From a virus: a stretch of 24,576 bases of DNA. Under the pieces are notes generated by a model. That model did no database searches. It had not been told where the DNA came from and saw only the letters and a program-made list of their open reading frames with translations. Shown here one piece after another: positions 3,783 through 24,115 of this stretch (position 1 is its first letter; every line of letters begins with the position of its first letter). Made by a program: the position numbers and the translations under genes. The stretch covers positions 1 to 24,576 of the IMG/VR virus record IMGVR_UViG_3300009502_000194. One strand, given 5' to 3'.

Positions 3783-5213
3783 ATGGGTTTCATGAACTTT
3801 AGTGGCGCTGTCCGCCCCGGATACCAAGCCAAAAGAACCTCTACGGTTTTTGTGGGGGATTCGATTACATGGGGATACGGGTTAGATCAAAATCAAACCA
3901 TCGCGTACAATATTCAGGCCCGCATCAACACCGTTACGGGGTTGACGCAAGCTACATGGGGTAATTCGTCTGCGGGCTTGGACATTTGTGCCCGCAACGT
4001 GATTGTGGACGACACAACATCGACGCCGTTTCAAGGCGGATCGCCACCTGCTCCTTACGCCAACCCGTTGTTGACACAATCTGGCGTTCTTGTTGCTGGG
4101 CTGGGCACGTACCCATTCTCCGATACGACCAATAACACCTACGGCAGCAACGTTTCTACGGCATACCCGTCAACCAGCAATTGCCCCGACGCCATATCAA
4201 TTCCGTCTGGGGGCAGCATTTCGTGGAACGCTACCTATCCGGGATCGACGGGTTACATCATTGTTGGACTGATGGGAGCCGGAACGGTTGTTGTCAAACA
4301 GGGCAGCACCATACTCCAAACCCTAACTTCTGGCGGAACGTTCAGTGGAACAGTGGTCAGCGGAACTAACACGATAACACTAACCACCGCCGTAACAGGA
4401 ACTTTAGTGGCGGGCAACCCGCTGTATTTTAGCGGAATTACTACTTCGCCCGTAACAACCATCGTGAGTTTTACCGGTACAAGCATCGGTAGCACCATCA
4501 CAATGAGCGCCAATTCCCCTGTTTCTGCAACCGGCACAGCTTGTCTGGCGCTTGCTTCTAACAGCGAGCCGGGAGGTAGCAACTTAAACATTGTTTCTTT
4601 TTCTGGCGCGTCGGGAACAAACAGTTATTCAATTTCCAATACCTCGGGCGGCGTCACCAATGTCGTTGTCAGCGTGTTGCATCCGAGCACCTTGTTGCCG
4701 ACAACGTACAACGAAATTCAGATCAACGGGCGAAACTCATACGCCATAGCGGATTATTCTTCTCCATCGGGAGACATCATCCAGCAACAGATCATGTCCA
4801 CCGTGACGCAAATACGGTCAGCGTCCACAGCATCGCCGCCGATCTACATCTTGTCGGTGGGTACGGTCAGCCTCTATGACACCTCCCGCCAATTGACGCC
4901 GACGCAATATGCTAATCAGCTCAACACCTTGGCGACGGCGTTTACAAATTCGGCGTATTACAACTACGGACGAGTCATCCTAACAATTCCGGCGCTGCCT
5001 TTAGCCGGTAACGGGTTTACTTTGCTGGCGGGATACACGCTGAACAATTATCGGCAAGCCATCATCGCTTTGGCAAACACACTAAAATGCGGTTACATTG
5101 ATCTCACACGAGTCAATCTGCTGTCTTCCGACTATCAAAGCGGAGGCCTGCACCCAAACGCCAGCGGCGCGGCCAAACTGGCGAAATACTACATCAGCAT
5201 GTTGGAATTTTGA
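3783..5213 (+). CDS. SGNH/GDSL hydrolase-like tail protein
   Basis: A 476-aa protein with an SGNH-hydrolase frame: block I is VFVGDSITWGYG (candidate nucleophile S27) and block V near the end is GGLHPNASGAAKLAKYY (H457). SGNH enzymes are esterases; in phage fibres they often deacetylate capsule, O-antigen or other envelope glycans. The aspartate usually three residues before the catalytic His is a Gly here (G454), with D450 the nearest acid, and no clear GxND block III is visible. Activity is therefore uncertain. About residues 180-260 form a Thr/Ser/Gly-rich beta insertion (GTNTITLTTAVTG...), likely a carbohydrate-binding or spacer domain. It lies just after a tail fibre. Start 3783 is preceded by a weak GAAGG; 3792 is an alternative. 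Confidence 0.75.
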   Translation: MGFMNFSGAVRPGYQAKRTSTVFVGDSITWGYGLDQNQTIAYNIQARINTVTGLTQATWGNSSAGLDICARNVIVDDTTSTPFQGGSPPAPYANPLLTQSGVLVAGLGTYPFSDTTNNTYGSNVSTAYPSTSNCPDAISIPSGGSISWNATYPGSTGYIIVGLMGAGTVVVKQGSTILQTLTSGGTFSGTVVSGTNTITLTTAVTGTLVAGNPLYFSGITTSPVTTIVSFTGTSIGSTITMSANSPVSATGTACLALASNSEPGGSNLNIVSFSGASGTNSYSISNTSGGVTNVVVSVLHPSTLLPTTYNEIQINGRNSYAIADYSSPSGDIIQQQIMSTVTQIRSASTASPPIYILSVGTVSLYDTSRQLTPTQYANQLNTLATAFTNSAYYNYGRVILTIPALPLAGNGFTLLAGYTLNNYRQAIIALANTLKCGYIDLTRVNLLSSDYQSGGLHPNASGAAKLAKYYISMLEF

Positions 5214-6271: not shown

Positions 6272-9200
6272 ATGTCGGCATCAGAAACACGAAATCAGCT
6301 TCTTGCCCAGATTAATTCGCAGATCATTGCGAATGGGCAGGGGGCTATTACTGGCCCTGTCTTGAACAACATTCTTGACAGTATGGTCTTGTCGTCTCTG
6401 TTTGATGCGGGCACTTGGTACGCGGCGGCCACTTACGCGCCGCTCGACGTTGTTCAATACAATGGTTCAACCTACATCGCTATCGCCACCAGCACCAACG
6501 TGCCGCCACCCAATGCGACGTATTGGCAAGTCTTCGCGTCCATCGGCGCGACAGGGGCTACCGGTCCAGCCGGACCTGCCGGCGGGGCTTTGGTCACGGT
6601 CGGTACAACCGCCGTCAATTCGGGCACAAACAGCTATCTGCTTTACGACAACGCTGGAACGCTCGGCAATCTAGCGGCAAGCAGCCTGACGGTCGGCGCA
6701 GCGACCAACATCGCCAACGGCGCGCTGGATCAGATCCCTTACCAGACCGGATCGGGCGCCACGGCGTTCATCTCGGCTCCGTCGGTCAGCAACACCTATC
6801 TCCAGTGGACTGGATCGGCGTTCGCTTGGGCTTCGCCGCCCGGCGTAACGACGTTCAGCGCGGGCACGACCGGCCTGACACCCTCGACCGCGACGAGCGG
6901 CGCGGTGACGCTCTCCGGCACGCTGGCGGTCGCCAATGGCGGCACCGGCGTCACAAGCTCGACCGGCGCAGGCTCCGTCGTTCTCTCCAGCTTCCCGACA
7001 TTGGTCTCCCCGGCGCTCGGCACGCCAGTGTCCGGCGTTATGTCGAACGTCACAGGCTTGCCGATCTCGACCGGCCTGACCGGCGCAGGCACCGGCGTCC
7101 TGACGGCGCTCGGCAACGCGACCAACGCGGCAGGCGGGTTCGTCACCTACAGCGGTGCGCTCGGCACGCCGACGTCCGGCGTTTTGACCAACGCCACCGG
7201 ATTGCCGCTCTCGACCGGCGTGACCGGCAACTTGTCGGTCAGCAACCTCAATTCCGGCACCAACGCCAACAGCAGCACCTACTGGCGCGGCGACGGCACA
7301 TGGGCGGCTATCACTGGCGCCACTGGCACTGTGACCAGCGTCAACGTCAGCGGCGGCACGACCGGCTTGACGACCAGCGGGGGTCCGGTCACCACGTCCG
7401 GCACCATCACGCTGGCCGGAACGCTGGCGGTGGCGAATGGCGGCACCGGCGTGACGACCTCAACCGGTTCTGGCGCAAACGTTCTTTCGAACTCACCAAC
7501 ATTGGTTACTCCTGCGCTCGGCACGCCTTCGGCGGTCACGCTGACCAATGCGACCGGCTTGCCGCTGACGACCGGCGTCACCGGCATCTTGCCGGTCGCC
7601 AATGGCGGCACTGGCACGGCGACCCCCGGCTTGGTGGCGGGCACCAACATCACCATCACCGGCAGCTGGCCGAACCAAACGATCAATTCCACCGGCGGCG
7701 GCAGCTCCGCGTTGGTTGTTGGAACGACCACAGTGACGGGCGCCACCAACGGATACCTTCTTTACAACAATGCAGGTGTCCTTGGCGCAGTGGCGCCCAG
7801 CAGCTCGACGATCACCATCGGCTCGCCGATCACGGGCGCCACCAACGGTTACGGCCTTTACGTGAACGCCAGCACGCAGCTGGGACAATTTGCGTATGGC
7901 ACCGGGGTTTTTGCTGCGCTCGGCGTGGCGGTCGGCAGCGCGGGCGCTCCGGTACTCTTCAATGGGGCTTTGGGTACGCCCAGCTCCGGCACACTGACCA
8001 ATGTGACCGGCTTGCCGCTGACGACCGGCGTGACTGGTATTTTGCCAGTTGCAAATGGCGGCTCTGGTACGTCAACTCCCGGCTTGGTCGCGGGGACCAA
8101 TATTACTATTAGCGGCAGCTGGCCGAATCAGACGATCAATTCCACCGCTAGCGGTGGTGTGACGACCATTTCATTCGGTTCCACGGGTTTGACGCCTAGC
8201 ACGGCTACATCGGGAGCTGTGACGGTTGCAGGAACTTTAGCTGTCGGCAGTGGCGGCACGGGTGTGACAAGCTCGACCGGTGCTAACAGCGTGGCGCTGC
8301 GGGATAGTAATGCTAATTTAACGGTGAACGCCCTTTTCCAAGGCTTCACCGTTGTGGCGGCCGCAGGCACGACAACAACGCTAACTGCGGCGTCTAATCC
8401 TGCTTACGTGGTGACAGGTTCGGGCGGTCAGACATTCCAGCTTCCCGATGCAACGACATTGCCAGCAGGGGCACAGTTCTCGTTTAACAATAATCAGACT
8501 TCTGGAACGATTGTTGTTAAAAATAATTCCGGCACTACGTTGCTGACGTTGCAGTCAGGGGCGTTTGCTGAAGTTATTCTTTTGGTAAACTCGCCCGCAG
8601 CGGGATCGTGGGACACGCATAATCAAGCGCCGACCAATGCGAGCTGGTCCACGAATACATTGAGCTGGGCAGGTTCGTATACAAATGGGACTTGGAATGG
8701 TGCGGTTGTAGGCCCGGCTTACGGCGGCACCGGCGTGGCGAACAACGCCGCCAGCACACTGACGATCAGCGGGGCTTACGGCACGACTTTCACGCTCAGC
8801 GGCACGACCGCATTGACGCTGCCAACCAGCGGATACCTGATCAGTTCGGTCTCGGCATTGGGCGCAAACCCGGTCACCGGAACGCCGTCCAGCACGACCT
8901 ATCTGCGCGGCGATGGAACATGGGCGACTGTTTCTGGTGGCGGTGGCGGCACATATACGCGCACGAGCTTTACCGCCACAGGCGGCCAGACGACCTTCAC
9001 CGTTTCCTATACAATTGGTTACGTTCAGGTTTATTTGAATGGCGTCCTGCTAAATGCGACTGACTACACAGCCACGTCTGGCACATCTATCGTTCTGGCG
9101 GTGGCTGCGTCTTCTGGCGACATCGTTGAAGTTATCGCGCTGTACGTGTCGATTGTCAGTGGCGTATCGGTCAGCGGATCGCCCACTAGCGGGCAGATCG

Positions 9201-9643
9201 CAACTTGGGTGAACTCGACCACGGTGCAAGGCACGTCAGTTCTTCCTTCAGCGAACGGCGGCACGGGCGTCAATAACGGCTCCAGCACCTTGACGCTCTC
9301 CGCCAACAACACCGCCGCGCAGTTCATCAACAACGCTGTCGCGGTCACGGTCACCTCTAATGCGGGCACGGTGCCGATCACGAGCAAGGTGAATAATTTC
9401 ACCAACAGCTCCGCCGCCACTATGGCGATCACGATGGCGGTAACCGGCGCGGTTGATGGTCAAATGTCGATGGTGCGCATTTACGACTTCAGCGCGGCGA
9501 CACAGACCATCGGTTGGACCAACACTGAAAACAGCACTGCTTCCGTGCCGACGACATCGAATGGCTCGACGACCTTGCCGGTGACCGTCGGGTTCCAGTA
9601 CAACGGCCAGACATCAAAATGGCGTTGCATCGCCACTGCATAA
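6272..9643 (+). CDS. Giant tail fibre with anchor, CBM-like and collagen-like segments
   Basis: A 1123-aa fibre. Residues 1-40 ([12 protein letters not shown]...[12 protein letters not shown]) match the N-terminus of the tailspike at 17451 and are the likely virion anchor. Residues about 46-88 resemble a chitin-binding-type module ([18 protein letters not shown]...NATYWQV). A short collagen-like segment [14 protein letters not shown] (92-105) leads into a long Gly/Thr/Ser beta-repeat shaft with many NGGTG turns and LPLTTGVTG repeats. Residues about 893-955 form a distinct domain ([16 protein letters not shown]...[13 protein letters not shown]), and the C-terminus is a separate beta domain. 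GAGG lies nine bases before the start. Composition shifts along the gene: the shaft is GC-rich up to about 7700, while 8150-8700 is AT-richer, suggesting mosaic origin. Confidence 0.85.
7718..8158 (+). repeat. Shaft segment paralogous to 2510-2945
   Basis: This is the second copy of the segment of about 145 residues shared with the 685-aa fibre, in the same block order and ending in GSWPNQTIN. The GSWPNQTIN block also occurs immediately upstream (about 7661-7690) and in the first fibre near 2155, so it is a recurring shaft module. Confidence 0.75.
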
Positions 9644-12326: not shown

Positions 12327-13289
12327 ATGCCTGCAATCATTACACGCGGTGCGATGTCGGCTCAGGGATTTGGGTATGGGGCGGCGGCAAGTGGAATTCC
12401 TGGGGATGGGACAAAAGGAATTTTTGCATTAGGTTATTGTACTGCAACTCGAAATAAATATATTTATTCAAACTGTTCATCTACAGCGACAGGGGTTGGT
12501 AGTGCCAGTCAACCATCTACTAATGGCGCTGCGGCAGGAAATAGCACTGCAGGAATATTTGCTGTAGGAAGTATCTCCACTATACGCAATAAATATACAT
12601 ATGCTTGTTGTTCATCTACATCTGTGGGCGTTGCATCATCAAGTGTAAGTTCTTGTGGAGGATCTGCTGCTGGCAACAGCACTCGTGGTATTTTTGCAAT
12701 TGGAAGAACACTTGTAGGTTGTTGTTTTCAAGCACTCACAACAAGAAATAAATACACATATTCTTCTTGCACATCTACCGCATGTGGGGTTGCTTCCTCA
12801 AGTGCAGTTTCTTCTGGAGGATCAGCTGCTGGAAATAGCACTAGTGGTATTTTTGCTTTGGGAAATTCATGTACAATTAGAAATAAATATACATATTCTT
12901 CTTGCGCATCTACCGCATCTGGCGTTGCTTCTTCAAGTGCAGTCTCAAATCGTGGATCTGCCGCTGGAAATAACACTCGTGGTATTTTTGCTCTTGGTTA
13001 CGCTTGCTTCATCCCTACAACGATTCGCAATAAGTATACATATGCTTGTTGTACTTCTACTGCGATTGGTGTTGCCGCTTCTAGTACACTATCATCGGGG
13101 GGTTCTGCTGCTGGAAATAGCACTCGTGGTATTTTTGCTCTTGGTGGTTCCGCTTGCTTCATCCCTACAACGATTCGCAATAAGTATCTTTATTCTAGTT
13201 GTACTTCCACTGCTACTGGGGTGGGGGCGGCAAGTGTCGCATCTGCAGGCGGCTCCGCCGCCTCTTGGGCCGTGTGCGTGAACGTATGA
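12327..13289 (+). CDS. Cys-rich six-repeat protein, putative propeller-like fibre tip
   Basis: A 320-aa protein. After about 25 residues come six repeats of about 45-53 aa, each starting with a GIFALG-type strand, then RNKYTYSSC, a TSTA.GV turn and GGSAAGNS. The period and strand pattern suggest a beta-propeller or stacked sheet, seen in repeat proteins of some phage tails. By my count there are 17 Cys, many paired (ACC, GCC), whereas the neighbouring fibres have almost none. The DNA is visibly AT-richer than its neighbours, with codons such as AAT, ATT and AGA. It contains exact long direct repeats: a block starting CGCTTGCTTCATCCCTACAA occurs near 13001 and again near 13151. GAGG seven bases upstream supports the start. 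Function is unknown; a host-contacting role is inferred from context. Confidence 0.7.
   Translation: MPAIITRGAMSAQGFGYGAAASGIPGDGTKGIFALGYCTATRNKYIYSNCSSTATGVGSASQPSTNGAAAGNSTAGIFAVGSISTIRNKYTYACCSSTSVGVASSSVSSCGGSAAGNSTRGIFAIGRTLVGCCFQALTTRNKYTYSSCTSTACGVASSSAVSSGGSAAGNSTSGIFALGNSCTIRNKYTYSSCASTASGVASSSAVSNRGSAAGNNTRGIFALGYACFIPTTIRNKYTYACCTSTAIGVAASSTLSSGGSAAGNSTRGIFALGGSACFIPTTIRNKYLYSSCTSTATGVGAASVASAGGSAASWAVCVNV
12400..13260 (+). repeat. Six degenerate direct repeats of about 120-160 bp
   Basis: These are in-frame direct repeats underlying the Cys-rich protein. The strongest pair has a 147-bp period (the GGTATTTTTGCTC block at 12981 and 13128) and shares a run of more than 30 identical bases after it. 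Such identity favours unequal recombination and change in copy number. Confidence 0.8.
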
Positions 13290-13906
13290 GCAGCCAACCG
13301 CACCGCAATAACTCAGATTTTCAACTCCGCCATTTTATTGCTGGCGGATGCCACACGGCTGATGGCGCTTGGAACATCTTGTATGAGCAAATGCTCGACA
13401 TCCAAATCAAGATTGAGCACACCAAGGCTCAAATGTTGCGCCGCCAAGCCAAAATTGTTGAAATTGAAGAAACCTTAAACGATCCAGACATCAAACAATC
13501 TATAAAGCTTAGAGCTGAAGCTGATAAGATTGAATGGAAATCTGGCGAAGGACTATCTGAGCTGGCCTTGGCCGGCGCTGAAAAAGAGCTTGAAACCATC
13601 AAGACAATTATGGTTGAGCTTGAACCGCATCGCAAATACGGCCATCTTCCTTTGCTGGAAGCTACCGAAGCGGCGCAACATGATGAATGGCGTGAAGAGT
13701 TTCGGTCGCGGGTTGAGAACTTTCTGATTACGCAAGGGACCATTCCGGAGGATCAGCTTCGCGCCATGCGAAGCCATCCCGACTTTGAGACGCATATCTT
13801 GCCACATATCAAAGGGGTATCTATGAGGCTGGAAAACGCAAACGACAGATTGAACTTGCTGACCCATACCAATGTCCTTCTTGAGCACAAGGAGGCCGCA
13901 GAATGA
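13286..13906 (+). CDS. Coiled-coil protein of unknown function (206 aa)
   Basis: The frame is open further upstream to 13199, but the ATG at 13286 overlaps the stop of the repeat protein as ATGA and begins a normal polar N-terminus, so I choose it. Residues about 20-120 are heptad-like and highly charged (QMLRRQAKIVEIEETL, IKLRAEADKIEWKSGEGLSE, AGAEKELETIKTIMVELEPH), predicting a long coiled coil. The C-terminal part (FRSRVENFLITQGTIPEDQL, then SHPDFETHILPHI) is mixed alpha. No membrane or catalytic motif is seen. It is translationally coupled to the dioxygenase gene that follows, suggesting joint function; a scaffold or chaperone role is possible but unproven. Confidence 0.65.
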   Translation: MSSQPHRNNSDFQLRHFIAGGCHTADGAWNILYEQMLDIQIKIEHTKAQMLRRQAKIVEIEETLNDPDIKQSIKLRAEADKIEWKSGEGLSELALAGAEKELETIKTIMVELEPHRKYGHLPLLEATEAAQHDEWREEFRSRVENFLITQGTIPEDQLRAMRSHPDFETHILPHIKGVSMRLENANDRLNLLTHTNVLLEHKEAAE

Positions 13907-14523
13907 ACGATACCATTGAACCATTTTTTTGTTTTCCATCCATCATCTATCAAATTGACAAGCCTGAGTTCTTTGGCGCTATGCGCGACACTGCCACAGA
14001 TTACCTCTCCAAGCCGGAAGGCTGCGGAATGCCGCATGACCATTTGGTTCGGATGACTGCTGACATGGCGCAGGATGAACGGGTACAACCGTTTGCTCAG
14101 TATGTTGCCTTAACGGCACTTAATCTTTTGGGCGATCAAGGTTACAAAGTGGATGATAAGGCCGCATTCTTTGCTGCCATGTGGTGCCATGAATACAAAC
14201 AACATGCCTTGATGGAGCAGCACACGCATCCCGGCTGCAAAATGGTAGGCTTCTATTTCCTCGACGTTCCTGAAAACTTTATGGCGCGGTTTTACGATCC
14301 TCGTGCCGGAAAAATTGCTGGGGGGATTGAAGAACGGAATATGAACGAATTGACGCCTGCCAGCAATGTAGTGGATGTCATTCCCAAACGTGGGCAGCTC
14401 ATTCTGACAAATTCATGGCTCCCGCACAGCTTCACGCGCGTTGTGGGCGGTAAGGCAGCTAGGTTCATCCACTTCAATATCGACCTGATCGACAATCCAA
14501 TGCCGCAGGCCGAGGTTATATGA
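13903..14523 (+). CDS. Putative 2-oxoglutarate/Fe(II)-dependent dioxygenase
   Basis: A 206-aa protein with the layout of the phage 2OG-Fe(II) oxygenase family (PF13759 type). It opens FCFPSIIYQID, then WCHEYKQHALMEQHTHPG supplies the first metal His (H107 or H109), followed by GFYFLDVP, YDPR (D132, second ligand), a GQLILTNSWLPHSF segment (H175, third ligand) and RFIHFNIDL (R187, 2-oxoglutarate carboxylate contact). These enzymes hydroxylate protein or small-molecule substrates, using O2 and 2-oxoglutarate. AAGGAGG seven bases upstream gives a strong start within an ATGA overlap. Neighbouring tail genes suggest a virion protein or host surface component as substrate, which is inference. Ligand and Arg positions all appear intact. 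Confidence 0.8.
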   Translation: MNDTIEPFFCFPSIIYQIDKPEFFGAMRDTATDYLSKPEGCGMPHDHLVRMTADMAQDERVQPFAQYVALTALNLLGDQGYKVDDKAAFFAAMWCHEYKQHALMEQHTHPGCKMVGFYFLDVPENFMARFYDPRAGKIAGGIEERNMNELTPASNVVDVIPKRGQLILTNSWLPHSFTRVVGGKAARFIHFNIDLIDNPMPQAEVI

Positions 14524-14753
14524 GCCACTTTTTGATCCGATTCAACAAATCCCGTGGGGCGATAGGGCGAGGAACCCCGGACCATGCGTGGAGGGTTTTT
14601 GAAAATGGCAAAGAGTATCTTTTTAAGCATATTCAGGTTAATGTACCCGTCAAGGATGAGCAGGCGCACGGCGAATGGAATATTGCGTGTGATGGCGTTT
14701 TGACCATTGATCGTAGTACCTCCACCGCCATTATAAATAGGGGTGAGCCATGA
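14520..14753 (+). CDS. Small conserved-looking phage protein (77 aa)
   Basis: A 77-aa protein: FLIRFNKSRGAIGRGTPDH, AWRVFENGKEYLFKHIQVNV, then GEWNIACDGVLTIDRSTSTA and INRGEP. The order suggests a small beta-barrel-like fold with a conserved HAWRVF/EYLFKH core. I recall similar short proteins in T4-like and cyanobacterial phages, but assign no function. It overlaps the dioxygenase stop by ATGA and the next gene by ATGA, with GAGG four bases before its own start, so it is one member of a tightly coupled four-gene string. Confidence 0.65.
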   Translation: MSHFLIRFNKSRGAIGRGTPDHAWRVFENGKEYLFKHIQVNVPVKDEQAHGEWNIACDGVLTIDRSTSTAIINRGEP

Positions 14754-15274
14754 CAGTATACGCCGAAGTTCAGGGTAACACCCTTGTCCAGTACCCCTAC
14801 ACGCTGGGGTCGCTTATGGCTGAAAATCCTTACACAATTTTTGGTTCAGACCCCAATATTGCGGAAATTTTTCCTGAGACAAATATTGCAATTGCGAAGG
14901 GTTATACCCTTCAACCAGTTACATTTGCAGCGCAGCCCACATATGACCCCGCCACACAGTTATGCGTTCAAAACTCCTCTCCAACATTGATCAATAATGT
15001 ATGGACGCTGGAATGGACTGTTAGCCAAATGACGCCGGATCAAGAAACAGCGTGGCAAACCCAGCAAAAATCTAATAATAAAACTCAAGCTCAACAATTG
15101 TTATCAGAAACGGATTGGTCTGAGATTCCTAGCGTTACCAATACATCCAATACGCCGCACTTGGTGAATTCCGCAGATTTCGTGACTTACCGTAATGCGC
15201 TGCGGTCAATAGCGGTTAATCCCCCTGTTACGGCTGCATGGCCCACTAAACCAACAGAACAGTGGTCTAGCTAG
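14750..15274 (+). CDS. Tail-fibre assembly chaperone-like protein (174 aa)
   Basis: The C-terminal third carries the pattern QLLSETDWSEIPSVTN, FVTYRNALRSIAVNPP and WPTKPTEQW, typical of Phage_tail_APC (PF16778)-type assembly chaperones, which help fold or trimerise fibres and are usually not in the finished virion. The N-terminal part (VQGNTLVQYPYTLGSLMAEN) resembles small fibre-linked proteins. The middle is a charged, Gln-rich helix (TPDQETAWQTQQKSNNKTQA). It is translated from an ATGA overlap after AGGGGTGA. Which of the several fibres in this window it serves cannot be told. Confidence 0.7.
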   Translation: MTVYAEVQGNTLVQYPYTLGSLMAENPYTIFGSDPNIAEIFPETNIAIAKGYTLQPVTFAAQPTYDPATQLCVQNSSPTLINNVWTLEWTVSQMTPDQETAWQTQQKSNNKTQAQQLLSETDWSEIPSVTNTSNTPHLVNSADFVTYRNALRSIAVNPPVTAAWPTKPTEQWSS

Positions 15275-16728: not shown

Positions 16729-16922
16729 GATACCTTCTTGTCATTGCGGCGCTTATGACGTTGGTCGGTTGCGCCAGCAAGCCAGATACGCAGATCGTTG
16801 ACACCTCTTGCTCGTGGGTGAGGCCCATCTTCATCGGCAAGGGCGACAAACTGACGAACAAGACGGCGGAAGAAATTCTGGCCCACGACGACAAATGGAA
16901 ACAGTTCTGCGGGAGCAAATGA
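16725..16922 (+). CDS. Outer-membrane lipoprotein spanin subunit (Rz1-like)
   Basis: A 65-aa protein with a lipoprotein signal peptide MRYLLVIAALMTLVGC: the lipobox is LVGC with acceptor C16. The mature part has CSWVRPIFIGKGDKLTNKTA and EILAHDDKWKQFCG, two Cys flanking a helix, typical of small Rz1-like lysis lipoproteins. It is embedded in the i-spanin/endolysin string (ATGA overlaps at both ends) with GGAG six bases upstream. It would sit in the outer membrane and pair with the product of the preceding gene. Confidence 0.75.
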   Translation: MRYLLVIAALMTLVGCASKPDTQIVDTSCSWVRPIFIGKGDKLTNKTAEEILAHDDKWKQFCGSK

Positions 16923-17437
16923 TGAGCGCCAATAACTTTCCCGAGTGCTTTGCCCTTGTTCTCAAGAACGAAGGCGGTTACGTGGACAACCCTGCCGATC
17001 CCGGCGGCGCGACCAATTTGGGCTGCACCAAAGCGGTGTGGGAAGCCTTTGTCGGGCATGAAGTCAGCGAGGCCGACATTAAGGCCTTGACGCCCAACGA
17101 TGTGATGCCGCTCTACCGCAAACGGTATTGGGATGCCGTGCGGGGCGACGATCTTCCTGATGGCGTGGACTACGCCGTATTCGATTTCGCGATCAACAGC
17201 GGCACTGGCCGCGCGGTCAAAATCTTGCAGAAGGTGCTGGGCACCGCGCAAGATGGGCAGATTGGACCCGAAACCCTAGCGCTCGTAAACGCCGCCAACC
17301 CCCGTACTGTAGCGTCTCAAGTGTGCGATGCGCGACTTGCCTTTCTTCAGGGGCTTGCGACTTGGAACGATTTTGGCAGAGGATGGAAATCCCGCGTGGC
17401 GTCCGTCGAGGAAAAAGCTTTCGACATGGCGGCGTAA
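16922..17437 (+). CDS. Endolysin, GH108-type N-acetylmuramidase
   Basis: A 171-aa protein with the GH108 signature: FALVLKNEGGYVDNPADPGG has the catalytic E17 in NEGGY, then ATNLGCTKAVWEAF. The PG-binding-3-like second half reads YRKRYWDAVRGDDLPDGVDY, AVFDFAINSGTGRA, GQIGPETLALVNA. It hydrolyses the glycan strands of peptidoglycan at lysis. No signal peptide is present, so release needs the holin. The frame runs upstream to 16808, but GGGAG lies six bases before the ATG at 16922; the ATG at 16919 is an alternative. It completes a holin-spanin-spanin-lysozyme cassette. Confidence 0.92.
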   Translation: MSANNFPECFALVLKNEGGYVDNPADPGGATNLGCTKAVWEAFVGHEVSEADIKALTPNDVMPLYRKRYWDAVRGDDLPDGVDYAVFDFAINSGTGRAVKILQKVLGTAQDGQIGPETLALVNAANPRTVASQVCDARLAFLQGLATWNDFGRGWKSRVASVEEKAFDMAA

Positions 17438-17450
17438 TCAAAAGGTGTGA

Positions 17451-19346
17451 ATGATGACCATCGACAACCGCCAGCAGCTTCTTGGGACGATCAATTCGCA
17501 GATCAGGCTGAACGGCACGGGGGCCATCACCGGCCCGATCCTGAACAACGTGCTGGACACGACGGTCAACTCCGTCATGTTTTACGCAGGGGTTTGGTCG
17601 CAATACACCAACTACGCGCCACTCGATGTGGTTTTGTACAACGGCGTGTCCTACATCGCCTTGTTGACCAACGTGAACGTCATTCCTTCGGCCAATCCGA
17701 CGTATTGGACTCCGCTCGTCACAGCAAGCCAGAACGCTACCGGCGCGACGGGATCGGTTCAATACAACAACGGTTCTGGCGGGTTTTCTGGCTCCGCCAA
17801 CTTCACCTACGATGGCACCAATCTGACAACCCCCGCCTATATAGGCAACGTCAACGCAGCGTCGGCGACGGCAACTGGCGCGACAACGGCAAGAACATTG
17901 TCGGCCTACTTTGGTGACGTGCTGAGCGTCAAAGACTTTGGCGCTGTCGGAAACGGGGTGACCGATGACACAGCCGCCGTTCAAGCCGCGCTCAATGCAG
18001 CCGGCCCGGGCAAGCAAGTTCTCTTGAACGCGCCGGGGCAGTACCTGATCAACAGCGCCAATCTCAATATTCCAAAGGGCGTCCAACTCTGCGCGGGATG
18101 GCAAGTCCCCGGAACAACGAACAACAGCAGTTCGGGTGGTCAGCCGCTGGATTTATCTACGCTCAACGGCGCGCTGATCTTAAACCCAACCTACACGATA
18201 ACCATGCAATCTGGCTCGTCTATTCGCGGCGTGCCGATTTATCGCAAGGGTCTCGTAATCCCCGCGACAGATTCGTCGGCCTTTGCAGGCACGGCGATCA
18301 CAGTGCAGGGCGACGACTGCTACATTGGCTACAGCCTTGTTCTTGGCTTCAACCAGCTCGTAACCAGCACCAACCAAGTCCGAGAGAAGTACGAGTGGCT
18401 TTATGGCGACAATCAAAACGGCATCAAAATCCTCAATGCTTATGACACGCCATATCTTCAGTATTGCCACATGTGGCCGTTCTGCACGTACACAGCCACA
18501 GCCACCACGGCTTCATATCTGAGGACCGGAACTGCGTTCGACATTGAAGGCTCTGCGCTCATCAGCTTGGCGCATTGCTTCGCCCTTGGGTACAACATCG
18601 GCTATTTTCTATCGGGTGACGGCGGCCCCGTTCTTGTGGATTGCCAAGCCGATTACATCAATAACGGCGCGGTGGGTTTTATTGTCGGCAACAGCGTTCT
18701 TGGCGACACGAGTGGCAAATTCATTGGCTGTACTGCTTACGGCATAGCTGGAACAACCAACTCCAATGCGTATCAAGTCAATTTACCTGCCGGGGATTAC
18801 GTCGAATTTACCTCTTGTTCTGCGACGCAAACAGCCGGTGTTTACAACATAGTTTCCGGAGACGTGAGGATTATCGGCGGGTGTATGGACACCACGATAA
18901 ACGCGATTACTGTTTCTTCCGCCAACAGTGTCGTCATGTTGGACGGTGTTCGCGCCGTAAATGTCACCACCGCCATTATCTACAATCCCGGCGGCGGCGG
19001 AAACATCTACGTCTCTCCGTCTTGCGATTTCCAGCGCGGCACAGTTGGCGGAACCATTTCGTCCACCATGGTTCTGTACCCTATTGCATCCGCCGGAACA
19101 ATCAGCATTCCGGAATTTGGCGACGTCTTCCAAATTAACGGAACGACCGGGTTTGGCATACTTCTCAATGGTTGGGCGGGGCGAAAAGTTACGCTTTACT
19201 TCGCGGCAAGTTTGACCGTGTACAACGCGACTGGCGCAGCAAACATCCGTCTCAACAACAGCGCGAACTTCACAACAGCTGCGGGCTCAACCCTAACGCT
19301 GGTTAACAACGGCACGCAATGGTATGAAATTGGACGGTCTTACTAA
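17451..19346 (+). CDS. Tailspike with pectate-lyase fold
   Basis: A 631-aa protein. Residues about 1-42 (RQQLLGTINSQI...AITGPILNNVLD) and the following CBM-like stretch (YTNYAPLDVVLYNGVSYIAL, NPTYWTPL) match the N-terminus of the giant fibre at 6272: a shared virion-binding anchor. A short linker GATGSVQYNNGSGGF leads into DVLSVKDFGAVGNGVTDDTA from residue 156, the entry motif of Pectate_lyase_3 (PF12708), continuing as a right-handed beta-helix to about residue 520. The C-terminus (YFAASLTVYNATG...QWYEIGRSY) is a small beta tip. It probably binds or cleaves host surface polysaccharide; the catalytic residues cannot be read with confidence. AAAGGTG lies just before the start; ATG 17454 is the alternative. 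Confidence 0.85.
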   Translation: MMTIDNRQQLLGTINSQIRLNGTGAITGPILNNVLDTTVNSVMFYAGVWSQYTNYAPLDVVLYNGVSYIALLTNVNVIPSANPTYWTPLVTASQNATGATGSVQYNNGSGGFSGSANFTYDGTNLTTPAYIGNVNAASATATGATTARTLSAYFGDVLSVKDFGAVGNGVTDDTAAVQAALNAAGPGKQVLLNAPGQYLINSANLNIPKGVQLCAGWQVPGTTNNSSSGGQPLDLSTLNGALILNPTYTITMQSGSSIRGVPIYRKGLVIPATDSSAFAGTAITVQGDDCYIGYSLVLGFNQLVTSTNQVREKYEWLYGDNQNGIKILNAYDTPYLQYCHMWPFCTYTATATTASYLRTGTAFDIEGSALISLAHCFALGYNIGYFLSGDGGPVLVDCQADYINNGAVGFIVGNSVLGDTSGKFIGCTAYGIAGTTNSNAYQVNLPAGDYVEFTSCSATQTAGVYNIVSGDVRIIGGCMDTTINAITVSSANSVVMLDGVRAVNVTTAIIYNPGGGGNIYVSPSCDFQRGTVGGTISSTMVLYPIASAGTISIPEFGDVFQINGTTGFGILLNGWAGRKVTLYFAASLTVYNATGAANIRLNNSANFTTAAGSTLTLVNNGTQWYEIGRSY

Positions 19347-19400: not shown

Positions 19401-19622
19401 ATGTTCGATTTCGCCGCCTTCCTGACCAGCCACTGGGGCAATGCAGACAATCTGCACAGCTTCCTGGAGACCTATGGCCGCGACTATCAGCGCCCGACCC
19501 TGTACAAGTGGTTCCTGCGAGGAACCATTCCAGCGGAAGGTTTCGCCATCCTACTCGCTCTGCTCGAAATTGACTCGGGTAAACCGATCAGCTTAGTCGG
19601 GTATATGAAAGAGCCCGCATGA
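19401..19622 (+). CDS. Putative Cro/C1-like HTH regulator (73 aa)
   Basis: A 73-aa protein, NADNLHSFLETYGRDYQRPT then LYKWFLRGTIPAEGFAILLALLE. The stretch TLYKWFLRGTIPAEG resembles the recognition helix and following turn of small phage HTH repressors (pattern W..RG.IP.E...L..LL). It has no Shine-Dalgarno and lies right behind a promoter, so leaderless translation is likely, as known for lambda cI from its maintenance promoter. It overlaps the RusA gene by ATGA. Being first after the late genes, it may control the switch between early and late, or lysogenic, expression. The HTH assignment is by pattern only. Confidence 0.6.
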   Translation: MFDFAAFLTSHWGNADNLHSFLETYGRDYQRPTLYKWFLRGTIPAEGFAILLALLEIDSGKPISLVGYMKEPA

Positions 19623-20044
19623 GCTTGGAATGGGACTTCGAACTCATTCTTGACGGTGAGCCCATCGGAAAGGGCCGTCCACGCTTCTCGCGTCAGACTG
19701 GTCACACGTACACGCCAGAGAAAACAGCTCGCTTTGAAGAGCGGCTGGCGTGGGCGGCCCAAGACACCATGAAGCGCGCACCTCTCTTTGACGGCGCGCT
19801 CGACATGTGCATCCACGCATACTTTTCCGTGCCTGTCAGCAAGCCCGCCAAGTGGAAGCTCGACGCCATGACGGGGAAGATCCGCCCCACCAAAAAACCC
19901 GACATCGACAATATCGTAAAAGGGGTTGCCGATTCACTCAACAAGGTGGTCTATGTGGACGACACGCAAATCGTGTGTCTGACCGCATTCAAACTGTATT
20001 CGGACAGGCCACGGATCGAGATTTATATCAAGAAGCGCGCTTGA
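19619..20044 (+). CDS. rusA: RusA-family Holliday junction resolvase
   Basis: A 141-aa protein, the usual RusA length. The start of the fold is ELILDGEPIGKGRPRFSRQT. The catalytic cluster reads KKPDIDNIVKGVADSL, with D95 and D97, and YVDDTQI with D114/D115, matching the Asp triad of E. coli RusA; K101 matches its catalytic Lys. The enzyme is a dimer that cuts four-way junctions symmetrically and is used by phages to resolve recombination or replication intermediates before packaging. Its start overlaps the regulator stop (ATGA). All key residues look intact. Confidence 0.92.
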   Translation: MSLEWDFELILDGEPIGKGRPRFSRQTGHTYTPEKTARFEERLAWAAQDTMKRAPLFDGALDMCIHAYFSVPVSKPAKWKLDAMTGKIRPTKKPDIDNIVKGVADSLNKVVYVDDTQIVCLTAFKLYSDRPRIEIYIKKRA

Positions 20045-20048
20045 CAGA

Positions 20049-20080
20049 TTGTCCTTCGGGACTTATGTCTTACATATAGT
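20049..20080 (+). promoter_or_regulatory. Promoter-like element with UUCG hairpin before the helicase gene
   Basis: TTGTCC (20049-20054) followed 16 bases later by TACATA (20071-20076) resembles the element at 19366: both show TTGTC, then ten or eleven bases, then a (T/A)TGTC(C/T) block and TA(C)ATATA. Within it, GTCC-TTCG-GGAC (20051-20062) forms a four-base-pair hairpin with a stable UUCG loop, overlapping the end of rusA. No T-run follows, so termination here is unlikely. Confidence 0.35.
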
Positions 20081-20101
20081 CGAAACAGAGGGCAGGTAGC
20101 C

Positions 20102-21436
20102 ATGATTCCAATGCCAACCCAGCTATCCGGTGCGAAGTTTTTGGCGTCCCGCCATCGCGCCCTTCTCGCGGACGAGCCGCGCGTCGGCAAGACCGGCGCA
20201 GCCATCATCGCCGCCGACTATATCTTCGCCAACACCATTGATGTCGTCACCACCGCGTCTGGCCGCGCCGTCTGGCGCCGGGGCTTTGCGACGTGGAGCA
20301 AGCTCAACCGCACAATCGGGATTGTGGGCGTGGACAAGCACGCCGCCGACTGCGACGTCCGCATCCTTTCCTACAACGGCGCCACGACCTTCGTGTCCAA
20401 GCGCGCCACCGATCTGGTGATCCTCGATGAATCGCACAACTGCAAGAACCCTGACGCCAAGCGCACACAAGCCATTCTGGGCAAGCCTGTGGCGGGCGGC
20501 AAGAGCCTGTTCACTGGCGGTGCGCTGGTTAAGGACACGACGCGCGCTTGGTTCCTCACCGGCACCCCGCTGCCGCACGACCCTTCAGATATATGGACGA
20601 CCATGCGCTCGTCATGCCCAGAACGGCTTCTGGCTAACGATCAATGGGGTTGGCCGGACGTAACCCGGTTCGAAGATTTTCGGCACCGTTACTGCATCGT
20701 GCGCATGAAGCAGATCAGCCGGTTCAACAAAATACCGGTGGTGATCGGCGGGCGCAACGAGAGCGAACTGCGCGAACGGTTGGGCGATTTCATGCTGCGC
20801 CGGACGCAGAAGGACATCGGCATCCGCCCGTCCGTCTTTGAGCTTTTCCCGATGGTCGTATCGCCCGCCACGCGCAAGAAGATCGACGGCGATCTCGACA
20901 AGACGCGGATCATGAACGCGGCGGAGAACGGCAACACCAAAGAGCTGGAGATGGAGCTGGGGCCGCTGCGGCGCCTCACCGGCAACATCAAGGCGCAGTC
21001 GGTTGTCGAGGCCGTGAAGGAAGAGTTCGACAACGGGCTCGACAAAATCGTGCTGATGTATTGGCACAAGGAGGTCGGAGACGTGTTGCAGGCCGGACTG
21101 GAGAAGTTCAAGCCCCTGCGCATCGACGGCTCGACCCCGGTGAAGCAGCGCGAGCAATACGAGCTCGCGTTCAGAGGAAATTCGGAAAACCGCGTGATGT
21201 TGGGTCAGATTCAAGCTGCGGGCGAGGCGGTGGACTTCTCGTCCGCCAACGAGCTGTGGTTCGTCGAGACGTCGTTCTCGCCGAAAGATCAGGCCCAAGC
21301 CGCCATGCGGGTGACGAATGTGAAGCAGACGCGCAACACGTTTGTTCGCGTCTGCTGCATAGAGGGCTCAATCGACGAGGCGTTGCAAGCCTCGTTGTTG
21401 AGATTGTGGACAGCCATCAACGGAGTGCTGAAATGA
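20102..21436 (+). CDS. SNF2-type superfamily 2 helicase/ATPase
   Basis: A 444-aa compact SNF2-type ATPase. Q-motif-like PTQLSGAKFL, then Walker A ADEPRVGKTGA (K30), Walker B/DEAH-box LVILDESHNCKN (D109-H112), motif III FLTGTPLP, and a second RecA lobe ending in AVDFSSANELWFVETSFSPK and QAQAAMRVTNVKQT. Such proteins in phages remodel or unwind DNA during replication and recombination. In motif VI the first Arg is R403, but the arginine-finger position holds N406; this may be a subfamily trait. GGCAGGT near the start and an ATGA overlap with the next gene tie it to the early operon. Confidence 0.88.
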   Translation: MIPMPTQLSGAKFLASRHRALLADEPRVGKTGAAIIAADYIFANTIDVVTTASGRAVWRRGFATWSKLNRTIGIVGVDKHAADCDVRILSYNGATTFVSKRATDLVILDESHNCKNPDAKRTQAILGKPVAGGKSLFTGGALVKDTTRAWFLTGTPLPHDPSDIWTTMRSSCPERLLANDQWGWPDVTRFEDFRHRYCIVRMKQISRFNKIPVVIGGRNESELRERLGDFMLRRTQKDIGIRPSVFELFPMVVSPATRKKIDGDLDKTRIMNAAENGNTKELEMELGPLRRLTGNIKAQSVVEAVKEEFDNGLDKIVLMYWHKEVGDVLQAGLEKFKPLRIDGSTPVKQREQYELAFRGNSENRVMLGQIQAAGEAVDFSSANELWFVETSFSPKDQAQAAMRVTNVKQTRNTFVRVCCIEGSIDEALQASLLRLWTAINGVLK

Positions 21437-22203
21437 TCGAGATCAAGTTTACCCTAGACCCAAAGCTGCCGGTGTACGACCAGCTTCTGGATCATGTCGC
21501 GGCGTTTTTCCCGCGCGACGTCACGCTGGAAGTGACGGACGACGGAGAGCCTGTCACGCGCGTCACGCCCGATAGCCCGGTCGAGACGGAGCCGACAGAG
21601 CCCAAAAAGCGTGGCCGCAAGCCCAAGGAGACTGCGGTCGCCGCCAAGGAAGAAGTAGCGCCAGTGGTTGTGCCTGTCATCGACGAGCAAGACGTCGCTG
21701 ACGAAGCGGCGGAAGCCGCCAGCACCACGCTGACCCATGACGATGTGCGCGCAGCGGTTGGTGAGTTCACCAAGAAGTTCGGAATTGTCCGGGCGCAGAA
21801 ACACATTCCCATGTTGTTGGGAAAACCAATAGCTGAAATCCCTGACGATCAGGTGTCTTTGCAAGAAGCGATTGCGGCAATCCACGACTACATGCAGTGG
21901 GGCGCGGCGGAACCGACAGTTTCCATTCCGCCGTTGTTCGACGAAGAGCCCGAAACCGCGCTGGCCGAAATCACTGAGACCGACCTGCGCAACGCCTTGA
22001 TGGCCTATGCCGCCAAGTACGACGTGAACGATAAGATGGCTAACACCCTTATAGACGGCCCGGACATCCTCAAGAAGACGTTCGGTCCGGCGGTCTCAGC
22101 GCTGCGTCTGGTGCCCAAGGATCAGGCCTCGTTGCGCAAAGCTTACGACGCGATCAACGACGCCACCGACAACAACTGGTACAACCGAAAGGTGGTGCTA
22201 TGA
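21433..22203 (+). CDS. AT-hook-containing protein with internal duplication
   Basis: A 256-aa protein. A longer frame runs upstream to 21061 through the helicase gene; I choose 21433, where ATGA overlaps the helicase stop and GGAG lies seven bases upstream. Residues 1-35 are a small acidic fold; residues 58-65 (KKRGRKPK) are an AT-hook-like DNA-binding motif in a disordered Pro/Glu linker. Two related helical units follow: about 100-154 (LTHDDVRAAVGEFTKKFGIV...SLQEAIAAIHDYM) and 180-244 (ITETDLRNALMAYAAKYDVN...SLRKAYDAINDAT). Both start (L/I)T..D(V/L)R.A and end in a SL.(E/K)A..AI.D pattern. Binding of minor-groove DNA is likely. I recognise no family for the duplicated unit. Confidence 0.7.
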   Translation: MIEIKFTLDPKLPVYDQLLDHVAAFFPRDVTLEVTDDGEPVTRVTPDSPVETEPTEPKKRGRKPKETAVAAKEEVAPVVVPVIDEQDVADEAAEAASTTLTHDDVRAAVGEFTKKFGIVRAQKHIPMLLGKPIAEIPDDQVSLQEAIAAIHDYMQWGAAEPTVSIPPLFDEEPETALAEITETDLRNALMAYAAKYDVNDKMANTLIDGPDILKKTFGPAVSALRLVPKDQASLRKAYDAINDATDNNWYNRKVVL

Positions 22204-23489
22204 CCGTCCATTCCAACCGTTATCACGCTGTCTGGTCGGCCAGTTCCACCGCCGCCAACTGGACATGCGCTGGCCGGATGGCGATGGTCTCCATTTCCCC
22301 GGACCAGAAGTCCAGCATCTACGCTGCGGAAGGAACCGCAGCGCATGAGGTCGCAGAGAAGGCGCTGCGCGGCGACAAGGACTGCTCGAAGTTCTTGGGT
22401 GACGTCTACAGCATCGACGGTTTTGAGGTGGAGATCACGGAAGAGATCACCAACTCCGCCCAGATGTACGTGGACTACGTGGTCGAGCAAAACGACGTTG
22501 CCAGTGGTTGCCTGCTCTTTCTGGAAGAGCGCCATTCGCTGGCCCAGCTCGACCCACCCTTCGATGCTGGCGGCACCTGTGACGCCACCATCATCAAGCC
22601 GCTCTTGGGGCAGATCGAAGTGATCGACCTCAAGAACGGTAAGGGCATCGTCGAGGTGAACGGCAACAAGCAGACGCGCACCTATGCGCTTCTGGCTTTG
22701 CTGAACGCCCCGAAGGAGTTGGTCAATCAGGTCGATACGGTCAAGGTGACCATCGTTCAGCCGCGCGCGTCCCACAAGGACGGGCGCATCCGCAGCGAGA
22801 CATTCCACATCGCGGAGCTGATCGAATGGACGGCGGAACTGATGAAGGCCATGGAGCGGTCCAAGCTCGCCTTGGACGGCTTCGAGATGATCAACGGCAA
22901 CCGCACCGCGTTCGACACATGGGCAGCGGCGGCGCTGACGCCCGGCAACTGCACCTTCTGTCCAGCGCAGGGCATCTGCCCGGCGCTGCGCAGCAAGGCT
23001 CTGACGGTCTCCCCGGAGGTCGCAAGGGCTTGGTTTGAAGACCCCACACTGGAGACACCACCGATGATCTCGAATACGGTCCCGGCGCTGTCGCCGGAAG
23101 AGCTTGCCCACATCCTCGACGGTCTCGACATGTTGGAGGATTGGGCGAAGGCGGTGCGCGCCACAGCGCACGCGATGGCGGAGAAGGGGACCACAATCCC
23201 CGGATACCAGCTGGTCGAGAAGATCGGCAATCGCAAATGGGCCGCTGACGACGAGAAGATCATCAGCGATCTGAAATCTGTGGTCAAACTGACGGAAGAC
23301 CAGATCTTCTCGAAGAAGCTGTTGTCCCCCGCGCAGATCGAGAAAATAATCGGCGCAAAACGAAAGGACGAGATCGCCAACATGTACCACAAGCTGGTCA
23401 CCGGAACCAATCTGGTGTCGGCGAAGAAGACCTCCCGCCCGGCTGTCAAAGCCAAAACCGAATCTTTCTTTGAACCTCTGAAGGACTAA
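22200..23489 (+). CDS. DUF2800-family Cas4/RecB-like nuclease with Fe-S cluster
   Basis: A 429-aa PD-(D/E)XK nuclease of the Cas4/AddB type. C23 (WTCAGRM) is the lone N-terminal cluster ligand; GTAAHEVAE gives H49; VIDLKNGKG gives the metal-binding D143 and catalytic K145; NKQTRTYAL supplies the motif Gln. C251, C254 and C260 (CTFCPAQGIC) complete a probable 4Fe-4S cluster. In phages this family sits next to the DUF2815 protein and a helicase, as here, and probably trims DNA ends during recombination or replication. AAAGGTGG before the start and an ATGA overlap show coupling to the AT-hook gene. All core residues appear intact. Confidence 0.85.
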   Translation: MTVHSNRYHAVWSASSTAANWTCAGRMAMVSISPDQKSSIYAAEGTAAHEVAEKALRGDKDCSKFLGDVYSIDGFEVEITEEITNSAQMYVDYVVEQNDVASGCLLFLEERHSLAQLDPPFDAGGTCDATIIKPLLGQIEVIDLKNGKGIVEVNGNKQTRTYALLALLNAPKELVNQVDTVKVTIVQPRASHKDGRIRSETFHIAELIEWTAELMKAMERSKLALDGFEMINGNRTAFDTWAAAALTPGNCTFCPAQGICPALRSKALTVSPEVARAWFEDPTLETPPMISNTVPALSPEELAHILDGLDMLEDWAKAVRATAHAMAEKGTTIPGYQLVEKIGNRKWAADDEKIISDLKSVVKLTEDQIFSKKLLSPAQIEKIIGAKRKDEIANMYHKLVTGTNLVSAKKTSRPAVKAKTESFFEPLKD

Positions 23490-23494
23490 AGACC

Positions 23495-24115
23495 ATGGAA
23501 CGCTCTGCTGATTTCAAGACCTCGCTGTGCCGCGTCTCGTTTGCCAACTCGCTGTTCAAGCCGCGCGCCCAACAAGAGGGCGGCGTTGAGAAGTACGGTT
23601 GCACCCTGATCTTCGAAAAGTCCGGCGACCGCAGCGCGATGGACGCCGCCGTGAAAGGCGTCATCGTCGCCCAATGGGGCGACAAGGGGTTGGAGCGGGC
23701 CAAGGCTGGCCTGATCAAGTCGCCCTTCCTCGACGGCGCTGGCAAGGAAGCCCGCAACAAGAAGACCGGCGAGCTGCACCCCGGTTTCGGCCCTGACGTG
23801 TTCTTCCTGCGCGTGCAGTCTGTGCGCCAGCCGGTGCTGCGTTACAAGTCTGAGCACCTGCCCGCCACCGAAGAGGAGATCTACTCCGGCTGCTACGGCA
23901 AGGCCGTGCTGAACGCCTTTGCGTGGACCAACGCGCAGAACGGCGACGGCGTGTCGTTCGGCATTCAGTTCTTCCAGAAGATCAAGGATGGCGACCGTCT
24001 GGGCGGCTCTGGCGGCGTGGACGCGGGCAAGTGGATGGAGTCGGTGCCGGACGAAGGCGAGGCGCCTGAAGCCACCCGCAGCGGCGCTGGCGCCAGCGGA
24101 TTGTTCGGGCTCTAA
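23495..24115 (+). CDS. DUF2815-family ssDNA-binding-like protein
   Basis: A 206-aa protein with the DUF2815 pattern: TSLCRVSFANSLFKPRAQQE, KYGCTLIFEKSGD, a central PGFGPDVFFLRVQSV, then SGCYGKAVLNAFAWTNAQNG and VSFGIQFFQKIKDGDRLGGS. Its acidic Pro/Glu/Gly C-tail ends in GASGLFGL, a hydrophobic tip like those through which ssDNA-binding proteins such as T7 gp2.5 contact partners. It likely coats ssDNA in replication and recombination. It follows the DUF2800 nuclease, its usual neighbour. The start has AAGGAC eleven bases upstream. Confidence 0.85.
   Translation: MERSADFKTSLCRVSFANSLFKPRAQQEGGVEKYGCTLIFEKSGDRSAMDAAVKGVIVAQWGDKGLERAKAGLIKSPFLDGAGKEARNKKTGELHPGFGPDVFFLRVQSVRQPVLRYKSEHLPATEEEIYSGCYGKAVLNAFAWTNAQNGDGVSFGIQFFQKIKDGDRLGGSGGVDAGKWMESVPDEGEAPEATRSGAGASGLFGL

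Follow-up and report, generated by a model that had tools for sequence, protein, structure and literature searches.

A phage oxygenase-fold protein with an all-histidine motif is paired with a conserved 77-residue protein of an undescribed family

Oxygenases of the 2-oxoglutarate (2OG) type are among the commonest auxiliary gene products of aquatic phages, with their function left untested (PMC9602691). Roles in nitrogen metabolism or DNA repair have been proposed for them (PMC3037559), their partnership with ferrochelatase has been noted (PMC9599517), and phage oxygenases have already been reported to resemble human EGLN3 in structure (PMC12774648); our literature search did not turn up any report of a phage oxygenase that hydroxylates fibres. 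The protein studied here, OXY, resembles the putative 2OG-Fe(II) oxygenases of PF13759/TIGR02466 with solved structures (3bvc and 2rg4) in its fold (Z 21), its HxH...H arrangement and its DPR and FN motifs, but differs from them in that the Arg located 11 residues after the distal His is replaced, H190 is an additional invariant residue, and a small gene, SM77, is linked. The PHROG_81 oxygenases of pelagiphages and cyanophages (e.g., HTVC023P and HTVC033P) are OXY homologues with 22–29% identity and are also located near tail genes. They form a sister clade without SM77, in which a second oxygenase and a ferrochelatase-like gene usually adjoin. PHD2, bacterial prolyl 4-hydroxylase (P4H) and viral vCPH share the overall fold (Z ~15–16, identity 12–14%), but OXY is devoid of their HxD, and the canonical 2OG-binding Arg/Lys appears unmatched. 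Siphovirus sp. ctpbd312 (MW202545.1) carries an adjacent pair 37% (OXY) and 56% (SM77) identical to ours, which sits among replication genes, whereas ours sits among fibre genes.

The window analyzed here is a stretch of 24,576 nt from the IMG/VR virus record IMGVR_UViG_3300009502_000194 (positions 1 to 24,576). A preliminary description, made from the sequence alone, had proposed that one of its ORFs encodes a 2OG-Fe(II) dioxygenase with apparently intact metal ligands and 2OG-binding Arg, which is translationally tied to a coiled-coil protein, a small unknown and a fibre chaperone-like protein and could modify fibre residues. Much of this was borne out: the ORF is real and encodes 206 aa, COIL, OXY, SM77 and TFA are successively coupled through ATGA overlaps (Table 1), and TFA aligns through its C-terminal half with PHROG_4912 'tail fiber assembly' (E 4.7e-7). 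Two points differ: the active site departs from the canonical form, and the conserved partner is SM77 rather than the fibre genes. Elsewhere in the window, a GDSL-type esterase gene (PF13472) is located in the fibre region (3783-5213), and a GH108 endolysin gene (16916-17437) is followed by a gene for a pectate-lyase-like spike (17451-19346), which has sequence in common with the 1123-aa fibre protein. RusA, SNF2-type helicase, DUF2800 and Enc34-like ssDNA-binding genes lie downstream of the lysis region (19619-24115).

Table 1. Features of the OXY locus and its surroundings, in window coordinates
Feature	Coordinates	Strand	Description
Fibre-like protein	6272..9643	+	1123 aa; single short collagen-like stretch
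REP320	12327..13289	+	Protein built of kelch-like repeats (~45-53 aa per unit; TTIRNKYTYSSC motif); COIL partner
COIL	13286..13906	+	Coiled-coil-like protein, 206 aa; co-occurs with the kelch-like repeat protein
OXY	13903..14523	+	PF13759/PHROG_81 oxygenase-fold protein, 206 aa; invariant H107, H109, H175, H190
SM77	14520..14753	+	Small all-beta protein (77 aa); family highly conserved and undescribed; constant gene 3′ of OXY
TFA	14750..15274	+	Tail-fibre-assembly-like protein (PHROG_4912)

OXY scored 42.1 bits against the PF13759 2OG-FeII_Oxy_5 profile (E 1.2e-10), above the curated Pfam cut-off of 27, and matched PHROG_81 over residues 2-178 (E 2.7e-15); its score against TIGR02466 of NCBIfam, 48.1 bits, was under the cut-off of 62.5. 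The AlphaFold2 model is a double-stranded beta-helix (pLDDT 93), and its closest PDB folds are 3bvc (Z 21.1) and 2rg4 (Z 20.9), both uncharacterised PF13759 proteins. SnoN, bacterial P4H, PHD2 and chlorella-virus vCPH follow at Z ~15–16, and OkaE is also among the neighbours. These folds include protein prolyl hydroxylases, in keeping with a fibre hydroxylase, as well as SnoN and OkaE, which are small-molecule enzymes. Purifying selection acts on the gene (dN/dS 0.03–0.15).

In 153 OXY relatives that carry SM77, H107, H109, H175 and H190 are invariant, and W94, Y118, F119, P133, K137 (K or R) and the DPR motif are nearly so. The putative metal motif reads H107-x-H109...H175, i.e. HxH...H, in all 153, and the HxD/E...H triad of canonical 2-His-1-carboxylate 2OG-Fe(II) oxygenases is absent. 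Likewise, OXY does not carry the HxD triad of collagen-type prolyl 4-hydroxylase, the Asp of which is replaced by H109. As the equivalent Asp-to-His substitution in prolyl 4-hydroxylase, D414H, rendered the activity undetectable (PMC2767507), it would be premature to describe the metal ligands as intact. The presumed 2OG-binding Arg, R187, is not strictly conserved: of the 153 relatives, 69 have R at this position, 52 K, 15 T and 7 Q (R/K in 121, other residues in 32 in total), and it lies 12 residues after the distal His, one residue off the Arg of 3bvc and 2rg4 (+11, ungapped alignment). Residue 186, at +11, is hydrophobic in the OXY subfamily. R134 or K137 of the DPRxGK sequence could serve as an alternative 2OG anchor. 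At residue 96, the window OXY carries His where 151 of the 153 relatives have Gln.

OXY might then be a metal-binding pseudo-oxygenase that plays a structural role with SM77, as HxH replaces HxD/E, the Arg is unconserved and P4H activity is lost with D414H. This is very improbable, because the four invariant His residues and the near invariance of W94, Y118, DPR and K137 among the 153 proteins are what an active site predicts, HxH is also present in the solved relatives 3bvc and 2rg4, and 3-His dioxygenases are known (PMC2767507). The metal site of OXY is probably composed of His107, His109 and His175; an all-His site, if active, would inform the mechanism of PF13759 enzymes.

The survey of homologue neighborhoods suggested in the preliminary description was run on ~106 OXY loci, which are not independent because some of them are near-duplicate contigs. 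SM77, located immediately 3′ of OXY, was the single gene that was nearly always present, and its start lies at −6 to +45 nt from the end of OXY in 145 of 160 pairs. A search with SM77 alone retrieved 77 further loci, with OXY immediately upstream in 66 and one gene away in 8. OXY was missing from three, one of which is a contig edge, and the SM77 loci without OXY are short contigs. In long records of 31–328 kb, one SM77 and one strong OXY were adjacent in 16/16. The only locus from the genome collection is a Balneolaceae MAG, in which a contig carries SM77 and the genome has one OXY. The pairwise distances of OXY and SM77 are correlated, albeit modestly (r 0.38; permuted maximum 0.16). The pairing is in all likelihood genuine. 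The link to fibre assembly held and extends beyond the window, but the conserved partner is SM77 and not the fibre genes, and the working unit looks like the OXY-SM77 pair rather than the adjoining tail-fibre genes. Neighboring small genes of phages may, however, be inherited together even if their products do not interact, which counts against a common function of the two.

Other enzymes are occasionally found beside SM77. In five to six loci (L133, L136, L137, L138 and L192), OXY is separated from SM77 by a 2OG oxygenase of the PF13640 type, which lies exactly between the two. In two loci, a small protein that is cupin-like by sequence pattern, with no significant match in Pfam, is encoded directly 5′ of SM77 at the usual place of OXY, and in three other loci a cupin-like protein (HxH...H) immediately precedes OXY. 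PF13640 or cupin-like enzymes beside SM77 are expected if SM77 is a substrate of such enzymes. Cupin-like proteins are encoded at 2934-3215 in L149, 3845-4126 in L156 and 1809-2090 in L201.

SM77 has 13 invariant residues among 51 diverse members, and its predicted structure is confident and all-beta (pLDDT 94), with an ordered and nearly invariant loop, N9-K-x-R-G-x-x-G-R-G-T-x-D-H22-x-W24-R25. Searches of Pfam, PHROG and NCBIfam yielded no significant family common to SM77 members, with weak matches that leave a relation possible, and comparison of the model with PDB folds gave a best Z of only 2.5. Among viral models, the fold matched unnamed phage proteins, DUF2061 proteins and one protein named APS kinase; as similar folds occur in other viral proteins, SM77 may be a general adaptor instead of a substrate. 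Matches of SM77 to cyanophage '2OG oxygenases' (E 0.4) and to spermidine acetyltransferase (E 0.03) were taken as chance.

The gene immediately 5′ of OXY in 164 loci was TFA-related in 79 (61 + 18, a relation based on profile comparison at 93% and 99.9%), COIL in 23, a second oxygenase in 16 and others in the remainder, and many tail-fibre families were found among the neighbors. OXY could therefore hydroxylate residues of the fibre or fibre tip during assembly, with TFA and COIL as assembly factors and SM77 as a helper, as is consistent with the TFA-related or COIL genes adjoining OXY in 102/164 loci, the fibre families close by and the translational coupling in the window. However, the adjoining fibre families vary whereas SM77 is constant, and OXY and SM77 are kept together in a clade located in replication modules (see below). 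COIL, for its part, tracks the kelch-like REP320, and a homologue of COIL in Burkholderia phage BcepSaruman adjoins a kelch-motif gene in a record from which SM77 is absent. REP320 was rejected as an OXY substrate since it tracks COIL, not OXY, and the COIL/kelch pair exists in BcepSaruman without SM77. The collagen-like stretch of the 1123-aa protein, put forward earlier as a candidate substrate, is present once, but it consists of four G-X-Y triplets with Pro at the X, not the Y, position, and only 13 of 85 loci contain runs of at least five triplets. On this run frequency and Pro position, a collagen-like fibre was rejected as a general substrate, and a Gly-X-Pro substrate of collagen-type prolyl 4-hydroxylase is not supported in the linked proteins. 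The OXY neighbors showed no link to DNA-modification genes, and thus the linkage that the preliminary description had named as evidence against a fibre-modifying hydroxylase was not found. A role in defence or counter-defence was discarded as PADLOC gave no match. In sum, the fibre-assembly link of the proposed hydroxylase stands, but the constancy of SM77, the replication-module clade and the association of COIL with kelch proteins speak against it; fibre modification is possible but not favored, and we regard a fibre hydroxylase as unlikely.

In a maximum-likelihood tree, all OXYs linked to SM77 group in a single clade (104 rows, 100/100) separate from the pelagiphage-type OXYs, and SM77 is absent from three whole pelagiphage-type records that carry OXY relatives. 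Nine loci with the pair away from fibre genes constitute a nested clade (100/100), in which the surrounding genes are annotated or read as ParB-like, helicase, endonuclease VII, primase and RuvC-type resolvase. As the pair is intact in this nested clade, it has outlived a change of neighborhood: OXY and SM77 descend jointly and survive in two gene contexts. The replication-module clade also bears on the possibility that OXY is an auxiliary metabolic or repair enzyme, which would target a small molecule or nucleic acid or use up 2OG, as proposed for cyanophages, with SM77 as a regulatory or stabilising subunit. Published suggestions for phage 2OG oxygenases (PMC3037559; PMC9599517) and the small-molecule enzymes among the fold neighbors point in the same direction, but late structural genes adjoin most loci and the canonical 2OG residues are not conserved. 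Such an auxiliary role is improbable.

We favor the reading that OXY and SM77 constitute one functional oxidation module of two genes, with SM77 as either the target or the co-worker of OXY, and give it a probability of about 0.6. OXY would be a PF13759-type, metal-dependent oxygenase that binds its metal through His residues and oxidises SM77, most likely its dedicated protein substrate, probably within the loop of residues 9-25; alternatively, SM77 may be an obligate subunit that presents another target to OXY. The fibre-assembly genes would then be the usual insertion place of the module and not its defining partner. The fold, the conserved residues, the gene pairing and its joint descent are observed, whereas catalysis, the cosubstrate and physical contact between OXY and SM77 are inferred, and we place the narrower inference that SM77 is the actual substrate at somewhat under even odds. 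The departure of HxH from the canonical 2OG triad and the inactivity of D414H (PMC2767507) count against the module. More tentatively, many uncultivated phages may carry a self-modification module that comprises an all-histidine-site oxygenase and a dedicated, co-translated 77-aa beta-protein substrate, as a cassette between structural and replication regions.

At first sight OXY belongs to an ordinary phage gene family, and its added interest comes from the constant partner, which is undescribed, and from the unusual metal site. As the constant partner, SM77 provides a large clade of phage oxygenases with its first concrete candidate for a substrate or subunit, and the pairing makes a vague oxygenase annotation testable by co-expression and mass spectrometry.

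Two minor observations concern variation within the cassette. REP320 is 320 aa in the window and 220 aa in contig L002 (703-1365), where the adjoining genes are 93–99% identical, and this size difference suggests repeat-number variation. Between the window (13286-15274) and L002, adjacent genes differ strongly in synonymous divergence (dS 0.27 for OXY and 0.025 for TFA), hinting at recombination inside the cassette.
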